Shown one piece after another: positions 33,390 through 45,093 of a DNA stretch of 49,191 nt. Position 1 is the first letter of the stretch. Every line of letters starts with the position of its first letter. The position numbers and the translations under genes were made by a program. The notes beneath the pieces were generated by a model. That model saw only the letters and a list, made by a program, of their open reading frames with translations. It made no database searches and was not told the DNA's origin. The stretch is from Betaproteobacteria bacterium SCGC AG-212-J23 (lineage in GTDB: Bacteria > Pseudomonadota > Gammaproteobacteria > Burkholderiales > SG8-39), in assembly GCA_001644455.1 (NCBI GenBank), contig LSTF01000002.1, forward strand, positions 1 through 49,191, written 5' to 3'.

Positions 33390-33794
33390 GTGTTCAAGCG
33401 CATCGACCACATCGAGCTCCTGACCGCCTCGCCCGAGCGCATCGTCGAGTTCTACACCGGCATCCTCGGCTTCCACGAGCGGGAGCGCTTGCGAATCCCG
33501 GGGACGCCTTCCGGCCCGCTCGACCTCGTCTACCTCGAGCTCGGTGGTACGACGCTCGAAGTCATGTGCTACCCCGAAGCGAAGCCGCCGATCCCCGCTC
33601 GCGCAGCCGAGCAGCATCTCGGCTGGCAATGCCTGGCGCTCGAAGTGGAGGACATGGATCTGGCCGTCAGCGCGCTCGAAGCGAAGGGCGTGAAGCTTGC
33701 CTGGGGTCCCATGAAGCGGCCGGACTACGCGCGCGCCGAGATCCGCGACCCGGACGGGAACCCGATCGAGCTCAGGCAGTGGACCCGACGCTGA
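33390..33794 (+). CDS. VOC/glyoxalase family protein
   Basis: FKRIDHIELLTASPERIVEFYTGILGFHERERLRIPG...RAEIRDPDGNPIELRQW. Confidence 0.88.
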   Translation: MFKRIDHIELLTASPERIVEFYTGILGFHERERLRIPGTPSGPLDLVYLELGGTTLEVMCYPEAKPPIPARAAEQHLGWQCLALEVEDMDLAVSALEAKGVKLAWGPMKRPDYARAEIRDPDGNPIELRQWTRR

Positions 33795-34677
33795 GCAGGA
33801 TCGCGAAGACGAGGCCCAGCTTGGCGGTCGACGCGAGCGCGCCGTTCAGCCACGCGCCGGAAGGTGTCCGCCGGACGCGGAGATAAAGCCGCACGGCCCA
33901 AGGCAGGAGGAGCAGGGGCGCGAGAAGTCCAACCCGGGCTTCGTGCTGGGCGAGAGCCAGGACCAGCGCAAAGGGCGTGAGCAGAAGGAACGCATACTCG
34001 ATCAACGTGAACCGCACCCCGCAGCGCACCGCGAGGGTGTTCTTGCCGATGCGCCGGTCGGAATCGATGTCGCGCAGGTTGTTGACCACCAGCACCGCGG
34101 CGGCGAGCGCGCCCAGCGCCGCGCCGGCGAGAAGCGCGGTGGCGCTGATCGTGCCGGCGTGCAGGTAGTACATGCCGCCGACCGCCACCAGCCCGAAGAA
34201 GAGGATGACGAAAGCCTCGCCCCAGCCGGAGTAGGCGACCGGGCGGGGACCGGCGGTGTAGACCGCTCCGGCGAGCACCGACGCCAGGCCGATGGCGACG
34301 ATCGGCCAGCCGCCTTGCACCACCAGGTAGGCGCCCGGGATGAAGGCGAGCGCAAAGCACAGCACGACCGCCCCCTGGACGTGGGAAGCCGTCAGCCAGC
34401 CCTCGGTCGTGGCGCGCGGCGGGCCGATCCGGCCGCTGCCGTCCGCGCCGCGACGGAAATCGCCGACGTCGTTTTGCAGGTTGGTCCCGGCATGGATCAG
34501 CACCGAGGCGATGAGCGCTGCCAGCGCCAATTCGAGGCGGGCGCTATGGCCGTCCAGAACCGCGAGGCTGGTGCCCGCAAGAATCGGGGCCAGGGAAATG
34601 GTGAATGACCAGGGACGCAGTGCCAGGCACCAGGCGAGAACTCGTCCGGGGGCTCGGGGCGCCGCGAGTGCGGTCAT
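33772..34677 (-). CDS. menA: UbiA-superfamily prenyltransferase, MenA-like
   Basis: ALRPWSFTISLAPILAGTSLA...HAGTNLQNDVGDFRRGADGSGR, NNLRDIDSDRRIGKNTLAVR; ATG at 34677 chosen (ORF open to TTG 34728). Confidence 0.78.
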   Translation of the reverse strand: MTALAAPRAPGRVLAWCLALRPWSFTISLAPILAGTSLAVLDGHSARLELALAALIASVLIHAGTNLQNDVGDFRRGADGSGRIGPPRATTEGWLTASHVQGAVVLCFALAFIPGAYLVVQGGWPIVAIGLASVLAGAVYTAGPRPVAYSGWGEAFVILFFGLVAVGGMYYLHAGTISATALLAGAALGALAAAVLVVNNLRDIDSDRRIGKNTLAVRCGVRFTLIEYAFLLLTPFALVLALAQHEARVGLLAPLLLLPWAVRLYLRVRRTPSGAWLNGALASTAKLGLVFAILLSVGSTA

Positions 34678-34777
34678 GGCTCGCATTGTCCGCGCCGGTT
34701 CGTCCACGCACATAAGACTTTGGTCCAATACCTCCTCGCCCGGGTTTGTTGTCTAGTAGCGGAAACTCGGAGGGACG

Positions 34778-35065
34778 ATGAAACGAATCATGGCTTTAGT
34801 AGCGATTGCGGCGCTGGCAATTCCGTTCGGCGTTCAGGCTCAGGACGCCAAGGCCGGCGAGGGCGTGATCAAGGCAAGCGGCTGCCTGAAGTGCCACTCC
34901 GTGTCCGCCGACAAGGACGGCCCGTCCTACAAGAGCGTGGCGGCGAAGTACAAGGGTCAGGCCGACGCGCAAGCGAAGCTGGAGAAGTTCGTCTCCGGGC
35001 ACCACGGCGGCCCGAAGCCCAAGGACAAGGCGAAGGACGCGGTCGCCTTCATTCTCTCGCGCTGA
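34778..35065 (+). CDS. Periplasmic monoheme c-type cytochrome (MtoD-like position)
   Basis: Signal peptide MKRIMALVAIAALAIPFGVQA; one CxxCH (CLKCH); first gene of cytochrome cluster. Confidence 0.9.
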   Translation: MKRIMALVAIAALAIPFGVQAQDAKAGEGVIKASGCLKCHSVSADKDGPSYKSVAAKYKGQADAQAKLEKFVSGHHGGPKPKDKAKDAVAFILSR

Positions 35066-35074
35066 GATCGCAGC

Positions 35075-35659
35075 ATGCGCTGGTGGGCTAGCCTTCGCCA
35101 GGCCTACCCGAACCGCTCGGGACTGACGATCGCCATTGCGGCGCTGGTCGTGATGGTCGTGGTCGGCGGCGGGATCACCGTCGCCGCCGCGGTCACGGTG
35201 CACATGACCAGCACCGAGGAGTTCTGCAGCAGCTGCCACACCAACGACGCGGCCGCCGAGTTCAAGGACACGATCCACGACAAGAACCGCACCGGCGTGC
35301 GCGCCACGTGCGCCGACTGCCATCTGCCCAAGGAACTGGTACCGATGATGATCCGCAAGGTGAAGGCGGCGAAGGAAGTCTGGGGCCACTTCACCGGCGT
35401 GATCGACACCAAGGAGAAGTTTGACAAGCACCGCTACGAGATGGCGGTGAGCGAGTGGAAGCGGATGAAGGGCAACAACTCCCAGGAATGCCGCAACTGC
35501 CACGACCTCGCGAAAGCCCTCGAGAAGCAGAGCGAAACCGCGCGGGCCCGGCACACCAAGGTGCTGGCCGAGCGCACCGACTGCATCGACTGCCACTTCG
35601 GGATCGCCCACACCGAACCCGACGGGCCAGGGCCGAAGGAGATCAAGGTCTCCCGATGA
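35075..35659 (+). CDS. NapC/NirT/CymA-family tetraheme cytochrome c (quinol dehydrogenase)
   Basis: N-terminal TM helix; four CxxCH (CSSCH, CADCH, CRNCH, CIDCH). Confidence 0.94.
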   Translation: MRWWASLRQAYPNRSGLTIAIAALVVMVVVGGGITVAAAVTVHMTSTEEFCSSCHTNDAAAEFKDTIHDKNRTGVRATCADCHLPKELVPMMIRKVKAAKEVWGHFTGVIDTKEKFDKHRYEMAVSEWKRMKGNNSQECRNCHDLAKALEKQSETARARHTKVLAERTDCIDCHFGIAHTEPDGPGPKEIKVSR

Positions 35660-36588
35660 GGATCGCTGCCGCGTTCCTCGCTGCAACGTTCTCTGTAATC
35701 GCCGTGGCGCAGGACAAGCCCGCCCCGGCCAAGGACCTGGTCCTGAACGGCGATGCGAAATGCACGCGCTGTCACGACGAGAACGACAGCTTTCCCGTGC
35801 TTGCGATCGGCAAGACCAAGCACGGCACGCGCGCCGATCCGCGCACGCCGACCTGCACCAGCTGCCACGGCGCGAGCGAAGCGCACATGAACAAGCCGGC
35901 GAGCGGCGCGCGGCCCAAGCCGGACGTGATGTTCACCAAGACCTCGCCGACCTCGCCCGAGGCGAAGAACCAGGCCTGTCTCACCTGTCACCAGGGCGGC
36001 AAGCGCACCCACTGGCAAATGAGCATGCACGCCAGTCGCGACGTGGCGTGCAGCTCGTGCCACGTGGTGCACGCGCAGCGCGACCCGGCGCGCGACAAGC
36101 TCGAGCAGGCGAACGTCTGCTTCGCCTGCCACAAGCAGCAGCGCGCCGAGATCCGCCGCCAGTCGCGCCACCCGACGCTCGAGGGCAAGGTGATCTGCTC
36201 CGACTGCCACAACCCGCACGGCGCCGCCGGCGAGAAGATGCTGGTGCGCGACAGCGTCAACGACACCTGCTACACGTGCCACATGGAGAAGCGCGGGCCG
36301 TTCGTCCGCACTCACCAGCCGGTGCAGGAGAACTGCGCGCTGTGCCACAACCCGCACGGCTCGGTGAACGACAACCTGCTCAAGGTGCGCGCGCCGTTCC
36401 TCTGCCAGACCTGCCACGAGCCGACCAGCCACCGCGGCGGCGTCGCCGGCATCACCGGCGGCTCGAACAGCTCGACCTCGAGCGGCATCGGCATCACGCT
36501 CGCCCGCGCGTGCCTGAACTGCCACACCAACATCCACGGCACCAACAACCCGAAGGATGCCACCAATGAGCGCACGTTCAGGCGTTGA
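35656..36588 (+). CDS. DmsE/MtrA/MtoA-family periplasmic decaheme cytochrome c
   Basis: Signal peptide; ten CxxCH (CTRCH, CTSCH, CLTCH, CSSCH, CFACH, CSDCH, CYTCH, CALCH, CQTCH, CLNCH). Confidence 0.95.
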   Translation: MRIAAAFLAATFSVIAVAQDKPAPAKDLVLNGDAKCTRCHDENDSFPVLAIGKTKHGTRADPRTPTCTSCHGASEAHMNKPASGARPKPDVMFTKTSPTSPEAKNQACLTCHQGGKRTHWQMSMHASRDVACSSCHVVHAQRDPARDKLEQANVCFACHKQQRAEIRRQSRHPTLEGKVICSDCHNPHGAAGEKMLVRDSVNDTCYTCHMEKRGPFVRTHQPVQENCALCHNPHGSVNDNLLKVRAPFLCQTCHEPTSHRGGVAGITGGSNSSTSSGIGITLARACLNCHTNIHGTNNPKDATNERTFRR

Positions 36589-38602
36589 GCTCCGCCTGAC
36601 CGCGGTCGCTGCGGCGATGCTCGCGGCCGGTGCGGTCTGGGCGGACGAGCGCGACGACGAGATCAAGAAGCAGACCACGCCCGAGAGCACGGTCGAGGCC
36701 GGCGTCGGCTTCGTCAGCGGCGGCAACACGCGCTTCGGCCAGTACAACGGCATGACCAAGGAGCGCGGCTATTTGCTGCTCGACGGCCAGTACGTGCGGC
36801 GCGACGACGCGACCGGCACCTGGCTCGGCATCACCGGCCGCAACCTCGGTCTCGAGGATCGCGAGCTGCGCCTCGAGCAGAGCAAACAGGGCGACTGGGG
36901 CTATTTCATCGATTTCAGCCAGACGCCGCGCTACAGCCCGTACACCGCGGTCACCGGCCTGACCGGCTATGACAGCACCACGCAGACGGTCAACGGCCAG
37001 GCGCCGACCACGCTCGAGCTGAAGACCGAGCGCAGCGCGCTTGCCGCCGGCGTGAACAAGTGGATCAGCTCGCGCTGGGACGTGAATTTCAGCGCGCGCG
37101 AGGAACGCAAGACCGGTCGCCGCCTGTTCGGCCGCACCGGCACCGACTTCCTCGTCGATCCGATCGACTACCGCACCCAGCTCTACGAGGCGAGCGTCGG
37201 CTACCGGGGCGAGCAGGCGCAATTCACCGGCGGTTACTACGGCACCAACTTCGTCAACTACAACAGCCGCATCGACGTCATCGGCGGCACCGGCACCGGT
37301 TTCTCGCCGATCGCGCTGCCGCCGGCGAACGAGTCGCACCAGGCCTACCTCGGCGGCGGCTACAACTTCTCGCAGACCACGCGCGGCACCTACAAGTTCG
37401 CATACCAGCACCAGACGCAGAGCGACAACTTCATCGATGTCAGCACCACGGGGCGCAGCAACCTCGGCGGCGTCATCGACACCAAGTTCGGCCAGCTCGG
37501 GCTGTCGGCGCGGCCGATGGCTGGCCTCTCGCTGGTCGCCGACCTGAAGCGCGAGAACCGCGACGATAAGACGCCGATCGTCGATTACTTCAACGTCTCG
37601 ACCACCAATACCGCGACCGGCGTCAACGAGCCGCGCAGCATCCACTCGACGATCGGCAAGCTCGAAGGGACTTACCAGCTCCCGGCGCAGTTCCGCGTCA
37701 CCGCCGGATTCGACTTCGAGGAGAAGAAGCGCAACACCTCGGACGTCTACATCGTCAGCTACCGCGAGAAGACCGAGGAGCGCACCATGCGCGTCGAGCT
37801 GCGCCGCTCGATCTCCGAGACGCTCAACGGCTCGATCGGCTACGCGCACAGCCGCCGCACCGGCTCCGACTGGCAGAACACGACGACCACCACTCCCGGC
37901 CAGCTCGGCAGCAACCTGGTGCAGCCGTTCTATCTCGCCGATCGGGATCGCGACAAGCTGAAGCTCACCGCCGGCTGGACGCCGCTCGACCAGCTCGACC
38001 TGCAGTTCCGGGCGGAGGGGTCGAAGGACGACTACGGCGGGCGCACCCTCGGCATGCAGGACGGCAGCGCCAGGCTGTTCGCGCTCGACGCCGCCTATCG
38101 CTTCGCCGAGACCTGGCAGGTCTCGGCCTGGCTGTCGCGCGACGACAGCAAGGCGAACCTGCTCTCCTGCTCGAGCGCGGCGTCGAACAATAACGGCGAC
38201 ATCGGGGCCTGCCCGAACACCGCGGCGAGTCCGATCTGGAGCGCCAACCTGCGCAACGTCGGCAACGCGATCGGCATCGGCGTGAAGGGCAAGGCGACCG
38301 CCCAGCTCGAGGTCGGCGCCGAGTTCAACCTGTCCAGCGACCGCGCCGAGTTCCGCAACGGGCCGGCGCCCGCGGGCGTCACGCCGCCGCCCGACGTGAC
38401 CTACACTCGCAGCGTCACCAAGCTGAGTGCGAAATACGCGCTGCAGAAGAACACCGGCGTGCGGCTGCAGTACATCCACGACCGCTTCAGCACCAACGAT
38501 TGGACCTGGGAGAATTGGACCTACTCCGACGGCACGCGCATCCTGCCGAACGCGCAGCAGAGGGTCGACTTCCTCGGGGCGTCCTACTACCTGAACTTCT
38601 AG
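36566..38602 (+). CDS. MtrB/PioB/MtoB-family decaheme-associated outer membrane porin
   Basis: Signal peptide; VEAGVGFVSGGNTRFGQYNGMTKERGYLLLDGQYVRRDDATGTWLGITGRNLGLEDREL; amphipathic beta-strand pattern; ends YYLNF. Confidence 0.93.
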   Translation: MSARSGVELRLTAVAAAMLAAGAVWADERDDEIKKQTTPESTVEAGVGFVSGGNTRFGQYNGMTKERGYLLLDGQYVRRDDATGTWLGITGRNLGLEDRELRLEQSKQGDWGYFIDFSQTPRYSPYTAVTGLTGYDSTTQTVNGQAPTTLELKTERSALAAGVNKWISSRWDVNFSAREERKTGRRLFGRTGTDFLVDPIDYRTQLYEASVGYRGEQAQFTGGYYGTNFVNYNSRIDVIGGTGTGFSPIALPPANESHQAYLGGGYNFSQTTRGTYKFAYQHQTQSDNFIDVSTTGRSNLGGVIDTKFGQLGLSARPMAGLSLVADLKRENRDDKTPIVDYFNVSTTNTATGVNEPRSIHSTIGKLEGTYQLPAQFRVTAGFDFEEKKRNTSDVYIVSYREKTEERTMRVELRRSISETLNGSIGYAHSRRTGSDWQNTTTTTPGQLGSNLVQPFYLADRDRDKLKLTAGWTPLDQLDLQFRAEGSKDDYGGRTLGMQDGSARLFALDAAYRFAETWQVSAWLSRDDSKANLLSCSSAASNNNGDIGACPNTAASPIWSANLRNVGNAIGIGVKGKATAQLEVGAEFNLSSDRAEFRNGPAPAGVTPPPDVTYTRSVTKLSAKYALQKNTGVRLQYIHDRFSTNDWTWENWTYSDGTRILPNAQQRVDFLGASYYLNF

Positions 38603-38639: not shown

Positions 38640-39239
38640 ATGCTCGAAGCATCCGGCCTGCAATGCGCTCGTCAAGGCCGCACTCTTTTCCGCTCCCTGA
38701 CCTTCTCCGTCGCCGCCGGCGAGCGGTTGCGCATCGCCGGAGCGAACGGCAGCGGCAAGACGAGCCTGCTGCGCATCCTATGCGGCCTGCTCGCGCCGAA
38801 CGAGGGCGAGGTGCGCTGGAAAGGCGCTCCGATCGGGACCTTGAAAGAGGAGTACACGAAGGAGATCGTCTATCTCGGCCACGCGCCGGCGGTGAAGGAC
38901 GATCTCACGCCGGCCGAGAACCTGGAAATTTCGTGCAAGTTGGCGGGACTGACGGTCAAAGCGGACGCCGGGCTCGCCCGACTCGGCGTGCCGGCAGATG
39001 TGCCGGTACGCAAGCTCTCGCAGGGTCAGCGCCGCCGCGCGGCGCTCGCGCGCCTGGCGGTGAGCGAGTCGGTTCCACTGTGGCTGCTCGACGAACCCTA
39101 CGCCGCGCTCGACACGCAGGCGGCGGCGACGGTCGACGCGCTGATCGCCGCGCACGCCGCGCGCGGCGGCGCGGTGATCTTCACCACACACCAGGAAACC
39201 GGCGCCGGCGCCTCGCGGGTCCTGGAGCTGCATGGTTGA
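38640..39239 (+). CDS. ccmA: Heme exporter ATP-binding protein CcmA
   Basis: GANGSGKTSLLRILCGLL Walker A, LSQGQRRRAALARLAV signature. Confidence 0.95.
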   Translation: MLEASGLQCARQGRTLFRSLTFSVAAGERLRIAGANGSGKTSLLRILCGLLAPNEGEVRWKGAPIGTLKEEYTKEIVYLGHAPAVKDDLTPAENLEISCKLAGLTVKADAGLARLGVPADVPVRKLSQGQRRRAALARLAVSESVPLWLLDEPYAALDTQAAATVDALIAAHAARGGAVIFTTHQETGAGASRVLELHG

Positions 39240-39900
39240 GGCAGTGCTTTGCGTCGTGCGCCGCGACCTGCTGCTCGCCTGGCGGCGGCGCAGCGATATC
39301 GCGACGGCGCTGCTGTTCTTCATCATCGTCGCCAGCCTGTTCCCGCTCGGGATCGGCTTCGAACCGAACCTGCTGCGCGCCATCGCGCCGGGCGTGATCT
39401 GGGTGGCGGCGCTGCTCTCGTCGATGCTCTCGCTCTCGCGTCTTTTCGCCGCCGACCACGCCGACGGCACGCTCGAGCAGATGCTGCTCGGGGCGTCGCC
39501 GCTCGGCGTCATCGCCGCCGCCAAGGCCGCGGCGCACTGGATCGTCTCGGGATTGCCGCTGGCGCTGATCGCGCCGCTCATCGCCCTGCAATACGATCTT
39601 CCCGCCGCGCTCACCCCGGTGCTTGCACTATCATTGCTGCTCGGCACGCCGGTGCTGAGCCTGATCGGCGCCATCGGCGCGGCGTTGACGCTCGGCGTGC
39701 GCGGCGGAGGAATTCTTCTTTCGCTGCTGGTGTTGCCGCTGTACGTGCCGGTGTTGATTCTCGGCGCAGGGAGCGTCGAGATGGCGTCCGCGGGAATGGG
39801 GGGTGATGGGCAGCTGCTGCTTCTGGCGGCGCTGCTCGTAGCGTCGTGTGCGTTCGCCCCATGGGCGATCGCCTCGGCGCTGAGGATATCGATGGAATGA
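39232..39900 (+). CDS. ccmB: Heme exporter protein CcmB
   Basis: Multi-TM, LFFIIVASLFPLGIGFEPNLLRAIAPGVIWVAALLSSMLSL. Confidence 0.95.
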   Translation: MVEAVLCVVRRDLLLAWRRRSDIATALLFFIIVASLFPLGIGFEPNLLRAIAPGVIWVAALLSSMLSLSRLFAADHADGTLEQMLLGASPLGVIAAAKAAAHWIVSGLPLALIAPLIALQYDLPAALTPVLALSLLLGTPVLSLIGAIGAALTLGVRGGGILLSLLVLPLYVPVLILGAGSVEMASAGMGGDGQLLLLAALLVASCAFAPWAIASALRISME

Positions 39901-40592
39901 ACTGGTTCTGGTACGCATCGCCGCAGACTTTCGACCCGCTCGCCGGACGCATGGCGCCGTGGTTCGCACTTGCCGCCGCGCTGCTTGCGGCTGCCGGCCT
40001 TTATGTCGGCTTCTTCGTCGCGCCGACCGACGCGCAGCAGGGCGAGGTCTACCGCATCATCTTCATCCACGTGCCGGCGGCGTGGCTGTCGATGTTCATC
40101 TATCTGGTGATGGCGTTCTGGGCGGCGCTCGGCCTCGCCTTCAACACCCGCCTCTCCGGCATGATGGCGAGCGCGCTCGCGCCCACCGGCGCGCTGTTCA
40201 CCTTCATCGCGCTCTGGACCGGATCGCTGTGGGGCCGGCCGACCTGGGGTACCTACTGGGTGTGGGACGCGCGCCTCACTTCGGAGCTGGTGCTGCTCTT
40301 CCTCTATCTCGGCTTCATCGCCCTGCAGGCGGCGATCGACGATCCGCGCCGCGCCGACCGCGCCGGCGCGCTGCTCGCGATCGTCGGCGCGGTCAACATC
40401 CCGATCATCCACTACTCGGTGGTGTGGTGGAACACGCTGCACCAGGGCGCCTCGGTGAGCGTGACCCGCGGCGCGAGCATGCAGTCGCAGATGCTGATCG
40501 CGATGCTGCTGATGGCGCTCGGCTTCTGGATGTACAGCATCGCCGTGACGCTGGTGCGGGTTCGCTGCATCATGCGGGAAAGGGAAGCATGA
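39897..40592 (+). CDS. ccmC: Heme exporter protein CcmC
   Basis: MNWFWYASPQTFDPLAG..., WGTYWVWDARLTSELVLLFLYLG WWD motif. Confidence 0.96.
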   Translation: MNWFWYASPQTFDPLAGRMAPWFALAAALLAAAGLYVGFFVAPTDAQQGEVYRIIFIHVPAAWLSMFIYLVMAFWAALGLAFNTRLSGMMASALAPTGALFTFIALWTGSLWGRPTWGTYWVWDARLTSELVLLFLYLGFIALQAAIDDPRRADRAGALLAIVGAVNIPIIHYSVVWWNTLHQGASVSVTRGASMQSQMLIAMLLMALGFWMYSIAVTLVRVRCIMREREA

Positions 40593-40696
40593 GCGACCAC
40601 GCCTTCTACCTGTGGGGCGCCTACGCCGTGACCTTCGTTCTTTTGTTTCTTGAAGTCATTTTTCTTCTGAAGAGAAAGCGTGAAGCCAAGGCATAG
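40589..40696 (+). CDS. ccmD: Heme exporter protein CcmD
   Basis: [35 protein letters not shown] between ccmC and ccmE. Confidence 0.9.
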
Positions 40697-41120
40697 GAAG
40701 CTCGCCGCGATCGGCGGCGGCGTCGTCGCGCTCGGCATCGTCGTCGCGCTGGTGCTGACCGCGTTCCAGAAGAACCTGGTGTTCTTCTTCAGCCCGACCC
40801 AGGTCGCGGCGAAGGAAGCGCCCCTGGGGCGTACTTTCCGCATCGGCGGCATCGTCGAGCCGGGCAGCGTGAAGCGCGATGGCGTCGACGTCCGCTTCGT
40901 CGTCACCGACACTGCGCAGGGCCTGCCGGTGGTGTTCAGCGGGGCGCTTCCCGACCTGTTCCGCGAAGGCAAGATGGTCGTGGCGCAGGGCCAGCTCCGC
41001 GAAGACGGCGTGTTCCATGCCCGCGAGGTGCTCGCCAAGCACGACGAGAACTACATGCCGCCCGAAGCGAAGGAGGCGGTCGAAAAGGCGCACCAGGCCG
41101 CCAAAAAGGGCAAGCCATGA
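40680..41120 (+). CDS. ccmE: Cytochrome c heme chaperone CcmE
   Basis: GTG start; [16 protein letters not shown], heme-binding [11 protein letters not shown]. Confidence 0.96.
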
Positions 41121-43024
41121 TTCCCGAGCTCGGACAATTCGCGCTTTCGCTGGCGCTCGCCACGGCGCTTTTCCAGACGCTCGGCCTGAGCGGCCGCTTC
41201 GAAGGCCACGCGCGCGCCGCCGCGCAGGGGCAGGCGCTGCTCGTCGCGTTCGCCTTCGGCTGCCTGGTGCATTCCTTCGTCAGCAACGACTTCTCGGTGG
41301 CTTACGTGGCGATGAACTCGAACAGCGCCCTGCCGCTGCACTATCGCGTCGCCGGCGCCTGGGGCGGTCACGAGGGGTCGCTCCTCCTCTGGACGCTCAT
41401 GCTCGGCGCGTGGATGAGCGCAGTCAGCCTCTTCAGCCGGCACCTTCCCGAGGGCATGGCGGCGCGCGTGCTCGGCGTGATGGGCCTGATCAGCGCCGGC
41501 TTCCTCGCCTTCATGCTGTTCACGTCCAATCCCTTCGACCGGCTGCTGCCGGCGCCGGCCGACGGCCGCGATCTCAACCCGCTCCTGCAGGACCCGGGCA
41601 TGGTGTTCCATCCGCCGATGCTCTACATGGGCTACGTCGGCTTCTCGGTGGCCTTCTCCTTCGCCGTCGCGGCGCTGCTCTCCGGGCGTCTCGACGCGGC
41701 CTGGGCGCGCTGGTCGCGGCCGTGGACGACGGTGGCGTGGATGTTCCTCACCGTCGGCATCGCGCTCGGCAGCGGCTGGGCGTACTACGAGCTCGGCTGG
41801 GGCGGCTGGTGGTTCTGGGATCCGGTGGAGAACGCTTCCTTCATGCCCTGGCTGGTCGGCACCGCCCTGATCCACTCGCTGGCGGTGACCGAGAAGCGCG
41901 GCGCGTTCCGCAGCTGGACGGTGCTGCTCGCGATCGTCGCCTTCGGCCTGTCGCTGCTCGGCACCTTCCTCGTGCGCTCGGGCGTGCTTACCTCGGTGCA
42001 TGCCTTCGCGGTCGATCCGAAGCGCGGCATCTTCATCCTCGGCCTGTTCGTTCTCTTCATCGGCGGCGCGCTGGCGCTCTACGCCTGGCGCACCTCGCGC
42101 ATCGGCCTCGGCGGGGAATTCTCGGGCGTCTCGAGGGAGTCCTTCCTGCTGGCGAACAACGTGCTGCTGGTCGCCGCGGCGGGCACCGTTTTCCTCGGCA
42201 CCCTCTATCCGCTCGCGATCGACGCGTTCGGCGCGGGCAAGATCTCCGTCGGCCCGCCGTATTTCGAGGCGGTGTTCGTGCCGCTGATGGCGCCGGCGCT
42301 GTTCCTCATGGGCGTCGGACCGCTCGCGCGCTGGAAGCGCTCCAGCCTGCCGGAGCTGGCGGTGCTGCTGCGCTGGGCGCTCGCGGTGAGCCTCGCCGTC
42401 GGCCTGCTCCTGCCGCTCGCCATGGGAACGTGGCACGCGATGGTCGGCTTCGGATTGACACTCGCCATCTGGATCGTCCTCACGGCCCTGCTCACGCTGA
42501 GAAAGGGTTGGCGACAACCCCGGGCGCACTACGGCATGGTCGTCGCGCACATCGGCGTCGCGGTGTTCGTCGTCGGCGTGACGCTGGTCAAGGGCTACGA
42601 CGCCGAGAAGGACGTGAAGCTGCGCGCCGGCGAGACGGTCGAGCTGAACGGCTACGTTTTCCGCCTCGACGACGTGATCGACGTGCGCGGCCCCAACTAC
42701 CTCGCGGCGCGCGGCCACATCACGGTCACCCGCGAGGGCAAGCCGGTCGCGAAGCTCGCGCCGGAGAAGCGCGTCTATACCGTGCAGGAAATGCCGATGA
42801 CCGAGGCGGCGATCGATCCTGGCCTGACGCGCGACCTCTATGTTTCGCTCGGCGATTCGCTCGGCGACGGCACCTGGCTGGTGAAGGTGCAGGTGAAGCC
42901 GTTCGTCGACTGGATCTGGGTGGGTTGCCTGATCATGGCGCTCGGCGGGTTCCTCGCCGCGAGCGACCGCCGCTACCGCTTCGCCTTGCAAAAAGACCCC
43001 GCGCTCGCCAAGAGCATCGCGTGA
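41117..43024 (+). CDS. ccmF: Cytochrome c heme lyase CcmF
   Basis: [43 protein letters not shown]. Confidence 0.96.
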
Positions 43025-43542
43025 AGCTGGCCTGGACCCTCGGCATCTTCGTCGCCCTCGTCGTCCTGCTCGCCGTCGGGCTGCGCCTCGATCCGCGCGA
43101 GGTGCCCTCGCCGCTGATCGGCAAGCCGGCGCCGGCGTTCGAGCTGCCGCTGCTCGCCGCGCCCGACAAGACCTTCTCGCAGAAGGACATGCTCGGCAAG
43201 GTCTGGGTGCTGAACGTGTGGGCTTCCTGGTGCGCGCCGTGCCTCGTCGAGCACCCGCAGATCACGCGCCTCGCCGCGAGCGGCGTCGCGCCGGTGGTGG
43301 GCCTCAACTACAAGGACTTGCGCGAGGACGCGCTGCCCTGGCTGGCGCGCAACGGCAATCCGTTCGTCGCCACGGTCTACGACAGCGCGGGGCGCATCGC
43401 CATCGACTACGGCGTGTATGGCGTACCCGAGACCTACGTCATCGACCGCAAGGGCGTGATTCGCTACAAGCGCATCGGTCCGGTGACGCCCGAAATCCTC
43501 AAGGAAAAGATCGAGCCGCTTTTGCGAGAGTTGAATGCATAG
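43021..43542 (+). CDS. ccmG: Thiol:disulfide interchange protein DsbE/CcmG
   Basis: VWVLNVWASWCAPCLVEHPQI thioredoxin-like CxxC motif. Confidence 0.95.
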   Translation: MKLAWTLGIFVALVVLLAVGLRLDPREVPSPLIGKPAPAFELPLLAAPDKTFSQKDMLGKVWVLNVWASWCAPCLVEHPQITRLAASGVAPVVGLNYKDLREDALPWLARNGNPFVATVYDSAGRIAIDYGVYGVPETYVIDRKGVIRYKRIGPVTPEILKEKIEPLLRELNA

Positions 43543-43948
43543 GTTTCTGCTCGTGCTGGTCTGCGGCCTCGCCTTTGCTCAGGAAGACCCGGCCCTCGAG
43601 AAGCGCGTGCACGATCTTTCCAGCGAGCTGCGCTGCCTCGTCTGCCAGAACCAGACGCTCGCCGATTCCAGCGCGCCGCTCGCCGTCGATCTCCGCAACC
43701 AGGTGCGCGAGCAGCTGAAAGGCGGCAAGAGCGAGCGCGACGTGATCGATTTCCTGGTGGCGCGCTACGGCGACTTCGTGCTCTACCGGCCGCCGCTCAA
43801 GGCGAGCACGGTGCTGCTCTGGACGGGACCGTTCATCCTGCTCGCGTTCGGCCTGCTTTTTCTGGTTCTGAGAATAAGGCGAAAAGCGCCGCCGGCGCCC
43901 GAGCTTTCGGCTGCCGACCGCGAGCGCGCGGCGAAGCTCCTGGAATGA
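43535..43948 (+). CDS. ccmH: Cytochrome c maturation protein CcmH
   Basis: SSELRCLVCQNQTLADSSAPLAVDLR (LRCxxC), DFVLYRPP. Confidence 0.95.
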   Translation: MHRFLLVLVCGLAFAQEDPALEKRVHDLSSELRCLVCQNQTLADSSAPLAVDLRNQVREQLKGGKSERDVIDFLVARYGDFVLYRPPLKASTVLLWTGPFILLAFGLLFLVLRIRRKAPPAPELSAADRERAAKLLE

Positions 43949-45093
43949 TCCTCTTCGCCGTTCTCGCGACGCTGCTCGCCGCGCTGCTGCTCGCCTGGCT
44001 CTTCTGGCCGGCGCGCCGGCGGCGCGAGGTGTCGGCGCGCGAGGCCAACATCTCGATCTATCGCGACCAGCTGCGCGAGCTCGAAGCCGATCTCGCCGCC
44101 GGCAAGGTCGTGCGCGAGGACTACGAGCGCTCGCGCCGCGAGCTGGAGGGACGCCTGCTCGACGACGTCGCCGCGGCCGAGACGGCGGCGCCTCGCGCTC
44201 GCGCGGCATGGTCGTGGGCGGCGGGCGCGGTGATCCCGCTGCTCGCGCTCGCCGTCTACTTCACGGTCGGCAGCCCGAGCATGATCCAGCGCGAGGCCGA
44301 GCACATGGTGACCGCGCAGCAGGTCGAGGCGATGGTGGCCCGCCTCGCCGCGCGGCTGCGCGAGAACCCGGACGACGTCGACGGCTGGAGGCTGCTCGGC
44401 CGCTCCTATAGCGCGCTCGGCCGCTTCCCCGAGGCCGCCGACGCCTACGCGAGGGCGGCCACCAAGGCGCCGCGCGACCCGCAGCTGCTCGCCGATTTCG
44501 CCGATGCGCTGGGCATGGCGCGCGGCCAGAGCCTGCAGGGCGAGCCGGAGAAGCTGGTGCTGCGCGCCCTCGAAATCGATCCGAGGAACCTGAAGGCGCT
44601 GGCGCTTGCCGGTACCGCGGCGTTCGAGCGCAAGGATTTCCAGAAAGCGGCCGACACCTGGCGGCGGATGCTCGACGTCGTGCCCGCGGGCAGCGAGGAC
44701 GCGCGGGCGATCCAGGCCAACATCGACGAGGCGCTGGCGCTGAAGGGCAGCCGCGTGCTGCGCGGCGAAGTGCGGCTCTCGGAAAAGCTCAAGGGCAAGA
44801 CCTCGCCCGACGACCTGGTGTTCATCTTCGCGCGCGCGGTCGAGGGCCCGCCGATGCCCCTCGCCGTGCTGCGCAAGCGCGTGCGCGACCTGCCGACGAG
44901 CTTCGCCCTCGACGACAGCATGGCGATGACGCCGGCCGCGAAGCTCTCCAACTATCCGCGCGTCGTCATCTCGGCGCGCGTTTCGAAAAGCGGCGTCGCC
45001 AATCCCCAGGCCGGCGACCTGCAGGGCGCGAGCAAGCCGGTGGCGAACGACGCGAGCGGGGTGCGGATCACGATCGACACGGTAGTGCGCTGA
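43945..45093 (+). CDS. ccmI: Cytochrome c maturation TPR protein CcmI
   Basis: SIYRDQLRELEADLAAGKV, TPR region AMVARLAARLRENPDDVDGWRLLGRSYSALGRF. Confidence 0.93.
   Translation: MILFAVLATLLAALLLAWLFWPARRRREVSAREANISIYRDQLRELEADLAAGKVVREDYERSRRELEGRLLDDVAAAETAAPRARAAWSWAAGAVIPLLALAVYFTVGSPSMIQREAEHMVTAQQVEAMVARLAARLRENPDDVDGWRLLGRSYSALGRFPEAADAYARAATKAPRDPQLLADFADALGMARGQSLQGEPEKLVLRALEIDPRNLKALALAGTAAFERKDFQKAADTWRRMLDVVPAGSEDARAIQANIDEALALKGSRVLRGEVRLSEKLKGKTSPDDLVFIFARAVEGPPMPLAVLRKRVRDLPTSFALDDSMAMTPAAKLSNYPRVVISARVSKSGVANPQAGDLQGASKPVANDASGVRITIDTVVR

Follow-up and report, generated by a model that had tools for sequence, protein, structure and literature searches.

The window, by which we mean the whole stretch of 49191 bases that was examined, contains four genes lying head to tail on the forward strand between 34778 and 38602: an mtoD-like, a cymA/imoA-like, an mtoA-like and an mtoB-like gene, see Table 1. 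All four reading frames are intact. A tightly packed cluster in the order monoheme, tetraheme, decaheme and porin, with 1, 4, 10 and 0 heme motifs, had been predicted here, and this description holds: the ORFs are present at the coordinates given, a six-frame count of CxxCH returns the same four numbers, and genes 1 and 2 are separated by 9 nt while the others overlap. The cymA- and mtoA-like genes overlap by ATGA, and the porin gene starts within the 3' end of the decaheme gene. The original placements of the four genes were right; the starts were refined, the most likely ones being ATG 35656 for the decaheme and ATG 36566 for the porin, whose ORF has its first ATG three codons upstream, at 36557 (681 aa).

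Table 1. Genes of the cluster and of its two flanks (window positions).
Feature	Position	Strand	Remarks
menA-like UbiA-family prenyltransferase	33772..34728	-	TIGR00751, 172 bits; divergent, upstream of mtoD
mtoD-like periplasmic monoheme cytochrome c	34778..35065	+	95 aa, signal peptide, CxxCH at 36, distal His76, short form
cymA/imoA-like inner-membrane tetraheme quinol/quinone oxidoreductase, NapC/NirT family	35075..35659	+	194 aa, N-terminal anchor, 4 CxxCH
mtoA-like decaheme cytochrome	35656..36588	+	310 aa (most likely start), 10 CxxCH, overlaps cymA stop codon
mtoB-like MtrB/PioB-family outer-membrane porin, 26 strands predicted	36566..38602	+	678 aa from ATG 36566 (most likely start)
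ccmABC-E-FGHI cytochrome c maturation operon	38640..45093	+	ccmA starts 37 nt after mtoB; runs through ccmI

The heme motifs are confined to this place. Among all six-frame, stop-to-stop ORFs of at least 60 aa in the 49191 bases, the 15 CxxCH motifs fall in the three cytochrome genes and none lies elsewhere, so that a chance reading of the cluster is excluded. A search for sigma-70-like promoters found none, terminators are seen only at chance level, and the region upstream of mtoD has no match to an FNR-like pattern.

The porin scores 414 bits against PF11854 (MtrB_PioB, cut-off 23) and 329 bits against TIGR03509 (cut-off 240). In a sequence search of solved structures it matches MtrB of the Mtr complex (6r2q_B, E 2.8e-23). 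An AlphaFold model based on an alignment of 38 sequences (pLDDT 86) predicts 26 long strands, as do models of MtoB and PioB elsewhere (PMC10654088). The best solved fold match of this model is again 6r2q_B, with a TM of 0.82/0.86, while the next matches are TonB-dependent receptors at about 0.5 or below. The proposed membership in the MtrB/PioB family is thus borne out by both the profile models and the predicted fold. Porins of the MtrB kind are found in 47 of the 98 genomes of the betaproteobacterial family to which the window belongs.

The decaheme scores 277 bits against TIGR03508 (DmsE-family decaheme, cut-off 192) and matches MtrA of the Mtr complex (6r2q_A, E 3.7e-67) in the solved-structure search. 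In a careful tree of 41 decahemes it falls in a betaproteobacterial MtoA-like clade of 28 rows with support 100/99, which excludes Shewanella MtrA and the other decahemes common in the family. It is therefore an MtrA/MtoA homologue, as predicted, and not a member of an unrelated soluble clade. The tree, which does not include the MtoA of Sideroxydans lithotrophicus ES-1, assigns the window protein to the clade and not to a particular branch within it. A grouping with Rhodocyclales MtoA, seen with support 96 in a quick tree, was not upheld by the careful one.

The tetraheme was expected to be of the NapC/CymA type, and its score of 206 bits against PF03264 (NapC/NirT, cut-off 24) together with four CxxCH confirms this. 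Its heme I motif reads CSSCHTND, without the Met of CXXCHXM that is present in ImoA and absent in Shewanella CymA (PMC13390432); the tetraheme of another locus, L076, is likewise Met-less (CSSCHAND). We regard this Met as a detail of ImoA and did not take it as defining the cluster.

The monoheme is barely over the cut-off of PF00034 (Cytochrom_C; 21.9 against 21.3 bits). In the search of solved structures it matches MtoD of Sideroxydans lithotrophicus (PDB 4xxl, E 9e-15). The residues C36, C39, H40 and H76, in window numbering, are invariant in all 38 aligned MtoD-like proteins. The MtoD of ES-1 has an unusual His/His heme ligation in its crystal structure 4XXL (PMC4412085). Since His76 is invariant and no Met follows the CxxCH in the window protein, a bis-His ligation like that of ES-1 is to be expected from its sequence. 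The protein is shorter than nearly all its homologues: in the alignment both it and the MtoD of L076 lack about 12 residues directly before the distal His, which itself is present. We take the missing residues to be those that form the beta-loop in this structure (PMC4412085). This stretch, too, we treat as a property of the solved protein and not as cluster-defining.

With a probability of about 0.87, the four genes together encode an MtrAB/MtoAB-like conduit that would lead electrons through both membranes, to or from the outside of the cell. The original reading of an Mto/Pio/Mtr-type electron transfer system is supported by the match of the porin to MtrB/PioB and by the place of the decaheme in the MtoA-like clade. 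In such a conduit MtoA, with its ten hemes, would sit inside the MtoB barrel and wire the outer membrane. Electrons would be carried across the periplasm by MtoD or by a different cytochrome located there, and at the inner membrane the CymA/ImoA-like protein would exchange them with quinones of the pool. The machinery for heme attachment would come from the ccm operon downstream. Outside the cell, Fe(II) or a reduced mineral is the probable reactant, its electrons passing inward, but the same parts could also serve for export.

The mto cluster of ES-1 (Slit_2495-2498) consists of the same four gene kinds, and we take its order, from the locus tags and in part from PMC4412085, to be mtoD-mtoA-mtoB-cymA(imoA). 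This differs from the order mtoD-cymA-mtoA-mtoB of the window. Both clusters combine a decaheme and an MtrB/PioB porin with a NapC-family tetraheme, and the window MtoD, matching 4XXL, keeps the distal His and has no Met. However, it lacks the residues before the distal His, and the window CymA lacks the heme I Met that ImoA of ES-1 has. Further, there is no PmcA gene in the window cluster, which is directly followed by ccm. In ES-1 it is the low-potential PmcA that interacts with ImoA and MtoA, while MtoD does not (PMC13390432).

Compared with the MtrCAB of Shewanella (6R2Q), the window likewise has an MtrA-like decaheme adjoining an MtrB-like barrel of 26 predicted strands. In contrast, no MtrC is adjacent, cymA lies inside the cluster, the porin has no Cys in the N-terminal part of its mature form, and MtoB is only about 20% identical to MtrB in the structural alignment. 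The decaheme and the porin are also homologous to those of pioABC from Rhodopseudomonas, but no HiPIP (PioC) gene is found among the scanned neighbours, the direct ones being menA and ccmA. MtoA is without the long extension that we take to be a feature of PioA, and CymA and MtoD are present instead.

With the Group 4 betaproteobacterial mtrCAB/mto loci of Baker et al. 2022 (PMC8805035) the window shares the Mtr/Mto set, mtoD and a cymA-like gene, an accessory that is named mtoC there. The linkage of mtr/mto to ccm and the empty syntenic sites in relatives have already been described for these loci, where ccmA-I is adjacent, and both are seen for the window. Unlike them, the window has no MtrC. 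Its ccm operon also seems to belong to the site, since a relative that has no mto carries ccm at the same place.

It had been stated that the direction of electron flow cannot be read from sequence, and published trees agree, as MtoA and MtrA do not fall apart in them by direction or function (PMC10734462, PMC8805035). On balance we lean towards inward flow. Across the family, MtrB and RuBisCO tend to be found together: 25 genomes have both, 22 only MtrB, 10 only RuBisCO and 41 neither. Fisher's test gives p 0.0007 with kinship left uncorrected, and 0.036 when the two dominating genera are set aside. This co-occurrence and the lack of an adjacent MtrC speak weakly for electrons moving inward. 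A further weak point in favour is the full-length RuBisCO of G072 and G042, two relatives that share the mto-ccm arrangement.

The opposite reading is an Mtr-like outward conduit, in which CymA would oxidise quinol and MtoAB would pass the electrons to Fe(III), Mn(IV), humics or an electrode; we consider this possible, though not the expected case. The protein families are the same as those of MtrAB, conduits of this kind are reversible (PMC8805035, PMC10734462), and the Met-less heme I of CymA resembles that of the outward-acting Shewanella CymA and not that of ImoA (PMC13390432), which is a point against inward flow. The menA-like gene adjoining the cluster could also fit export. However, no MenD or MenB was found above cut-off, so that menaquinone synthesis is unsupported and we rejected a role for menaquinone deduced from this neighbour. 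Nor is an MtrC/OmcA-type cytochrome found beside the cluster or, with TIGR03507, above cut-off in the partial genome. Finally, nearly all reports of an MtoD-type partner concern betaproteobacterial clusters for which a link to electron uptake is known (PMC8805035).

The original prediction had also pointed to RuBisCO and the terminal oxidases of the host. In the window's own assembly, which is about 60% complete, neither RuBisCO nor a heme-copper oxidase (COX1) was found and a bd oxidase is the only terminal oxidase found, which counts against inward flow; there is no NarG above cut-off. Because of this completeness, the terminal reductases could not narrow the direction.

Another candidate is a conduit of the DmsEF type that would work for a molybdoenzyme outside the cell, for example a DMSO reductase, as the best NCBIfam model of the decaheme is named after the DmsE family. 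This is very improbable, since that model fits MtrA-type proteins generally and no molybdopterin oxidoreductase (dmsAB) is present among the scanned flanking genes. Further, we know of no MtoD or CymA in the Dms set. It is likewise very improbable that the cluster has decayed and lost its function: the assembly is fragmentary and MtoD is short, but the four frames are intact, none of the 15 heme motifs is lost, the distal His is in place, the tight overlaps are kept, and the MtoD of L076 has the same short form.

The neighbours of the cluster are thrC, DUF2237, a glyoxalase-like protein, menA and ccm, in which a small ccmD between ccmC and ccmE is possible. The menA-like gene is found in one other of 20 family genomes searched and in no other genome of the same genus.

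In a relative of the same genus (G074, L126) the site reads hom-thrC-DUF2237-cupin-periplasmic receptor-ccmA, without mto. In G042 (L121) it reads DUF2237-[Crp-like regulator]-mtoD-cymA-mtoA-mtoB-ccm. In a third genome, G073 of the same genus, a more distant mtoAB-mtoD adjoins thrC-DUF2237, about 30 kb from ccm. Since one relative has ccm without mto, ccm is probably native to the site and mto its variable part, which may have been either gained or lost there. The regulator of G042 is Crp/Fnr-like and divergent beside mtoD (L121:5128-5991, minus strand), a position where the window has none. In G073 (C79:1-46000; L127, L138, L128) several multiheme cytochrome ORFs lie between ccm and mtoAB-mtoD.

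To see how often the arrangement recurs, one genome per species was scanned, giving 80 named loci (L031-L110). These end about 7 kb to either side or at contig ends, so the counts are lower bounds. An mtoD-like gene is present in at least 59 of the 80 and a cymA-like gene in at least 20, while ccm genes are nearby in at least nine. The exact order mtoD-cymA-mtoA-mtoB occurs in at least eight (L031, L032, L039, L040, L045, L048, L068 and L108). The recurrence of the order and the linkage to ccm fit the published mobile mtr/mto clusters. In a search of plasmids MtoA had one match, at 37%, on an unannotated Photobacterium megaplasmid, and MtoB had none.

An adjacent cymA and an adjacent large (MtrC-like) multiheme gene seemed to exclude each other (1 locus with both, 15 with cymA only, 17 with the multiheme only, 16 with neither; p 0.0035 uncorrected). 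With kinship-independent pairs the sign was kept, but the effect was not significant (median p 0.5).

The principle of the conduit is already known, and the cluster joins the well-studied MtoAB/MtrAB family, varying modestly in two proteins, the shuttle cytochrome of the periplasm and the cytochrome on the quinone side. What it contributes is a complete Mto-type operon of compact form from an uncultured betaproteobacterial family. Being without PmcA and with a short MtoD, it is also a natural four-gene test case for which periplasmic cytochrome bridges CymA and MtoA. Speculatively, the short MtoD and the Met-less CymA, found together only in the window and in L076, might be a co-varying pair marking an Mto sub-type in which the monoheme, and not PmcA, partners CymA directly through shifted redox potentials; we think this unlikely. 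In L076 (9824-10663), the only other locus with both features, the order is mtoA-mtoB-mtoD-cymA.

One label among the loci deserves mention. L031 comes from a MAG titled Bordetella parapertussis, and in the columns used for the tree its MtoA does not differ from that of G088, a genome of the window's family; the species label is very likely wrong.
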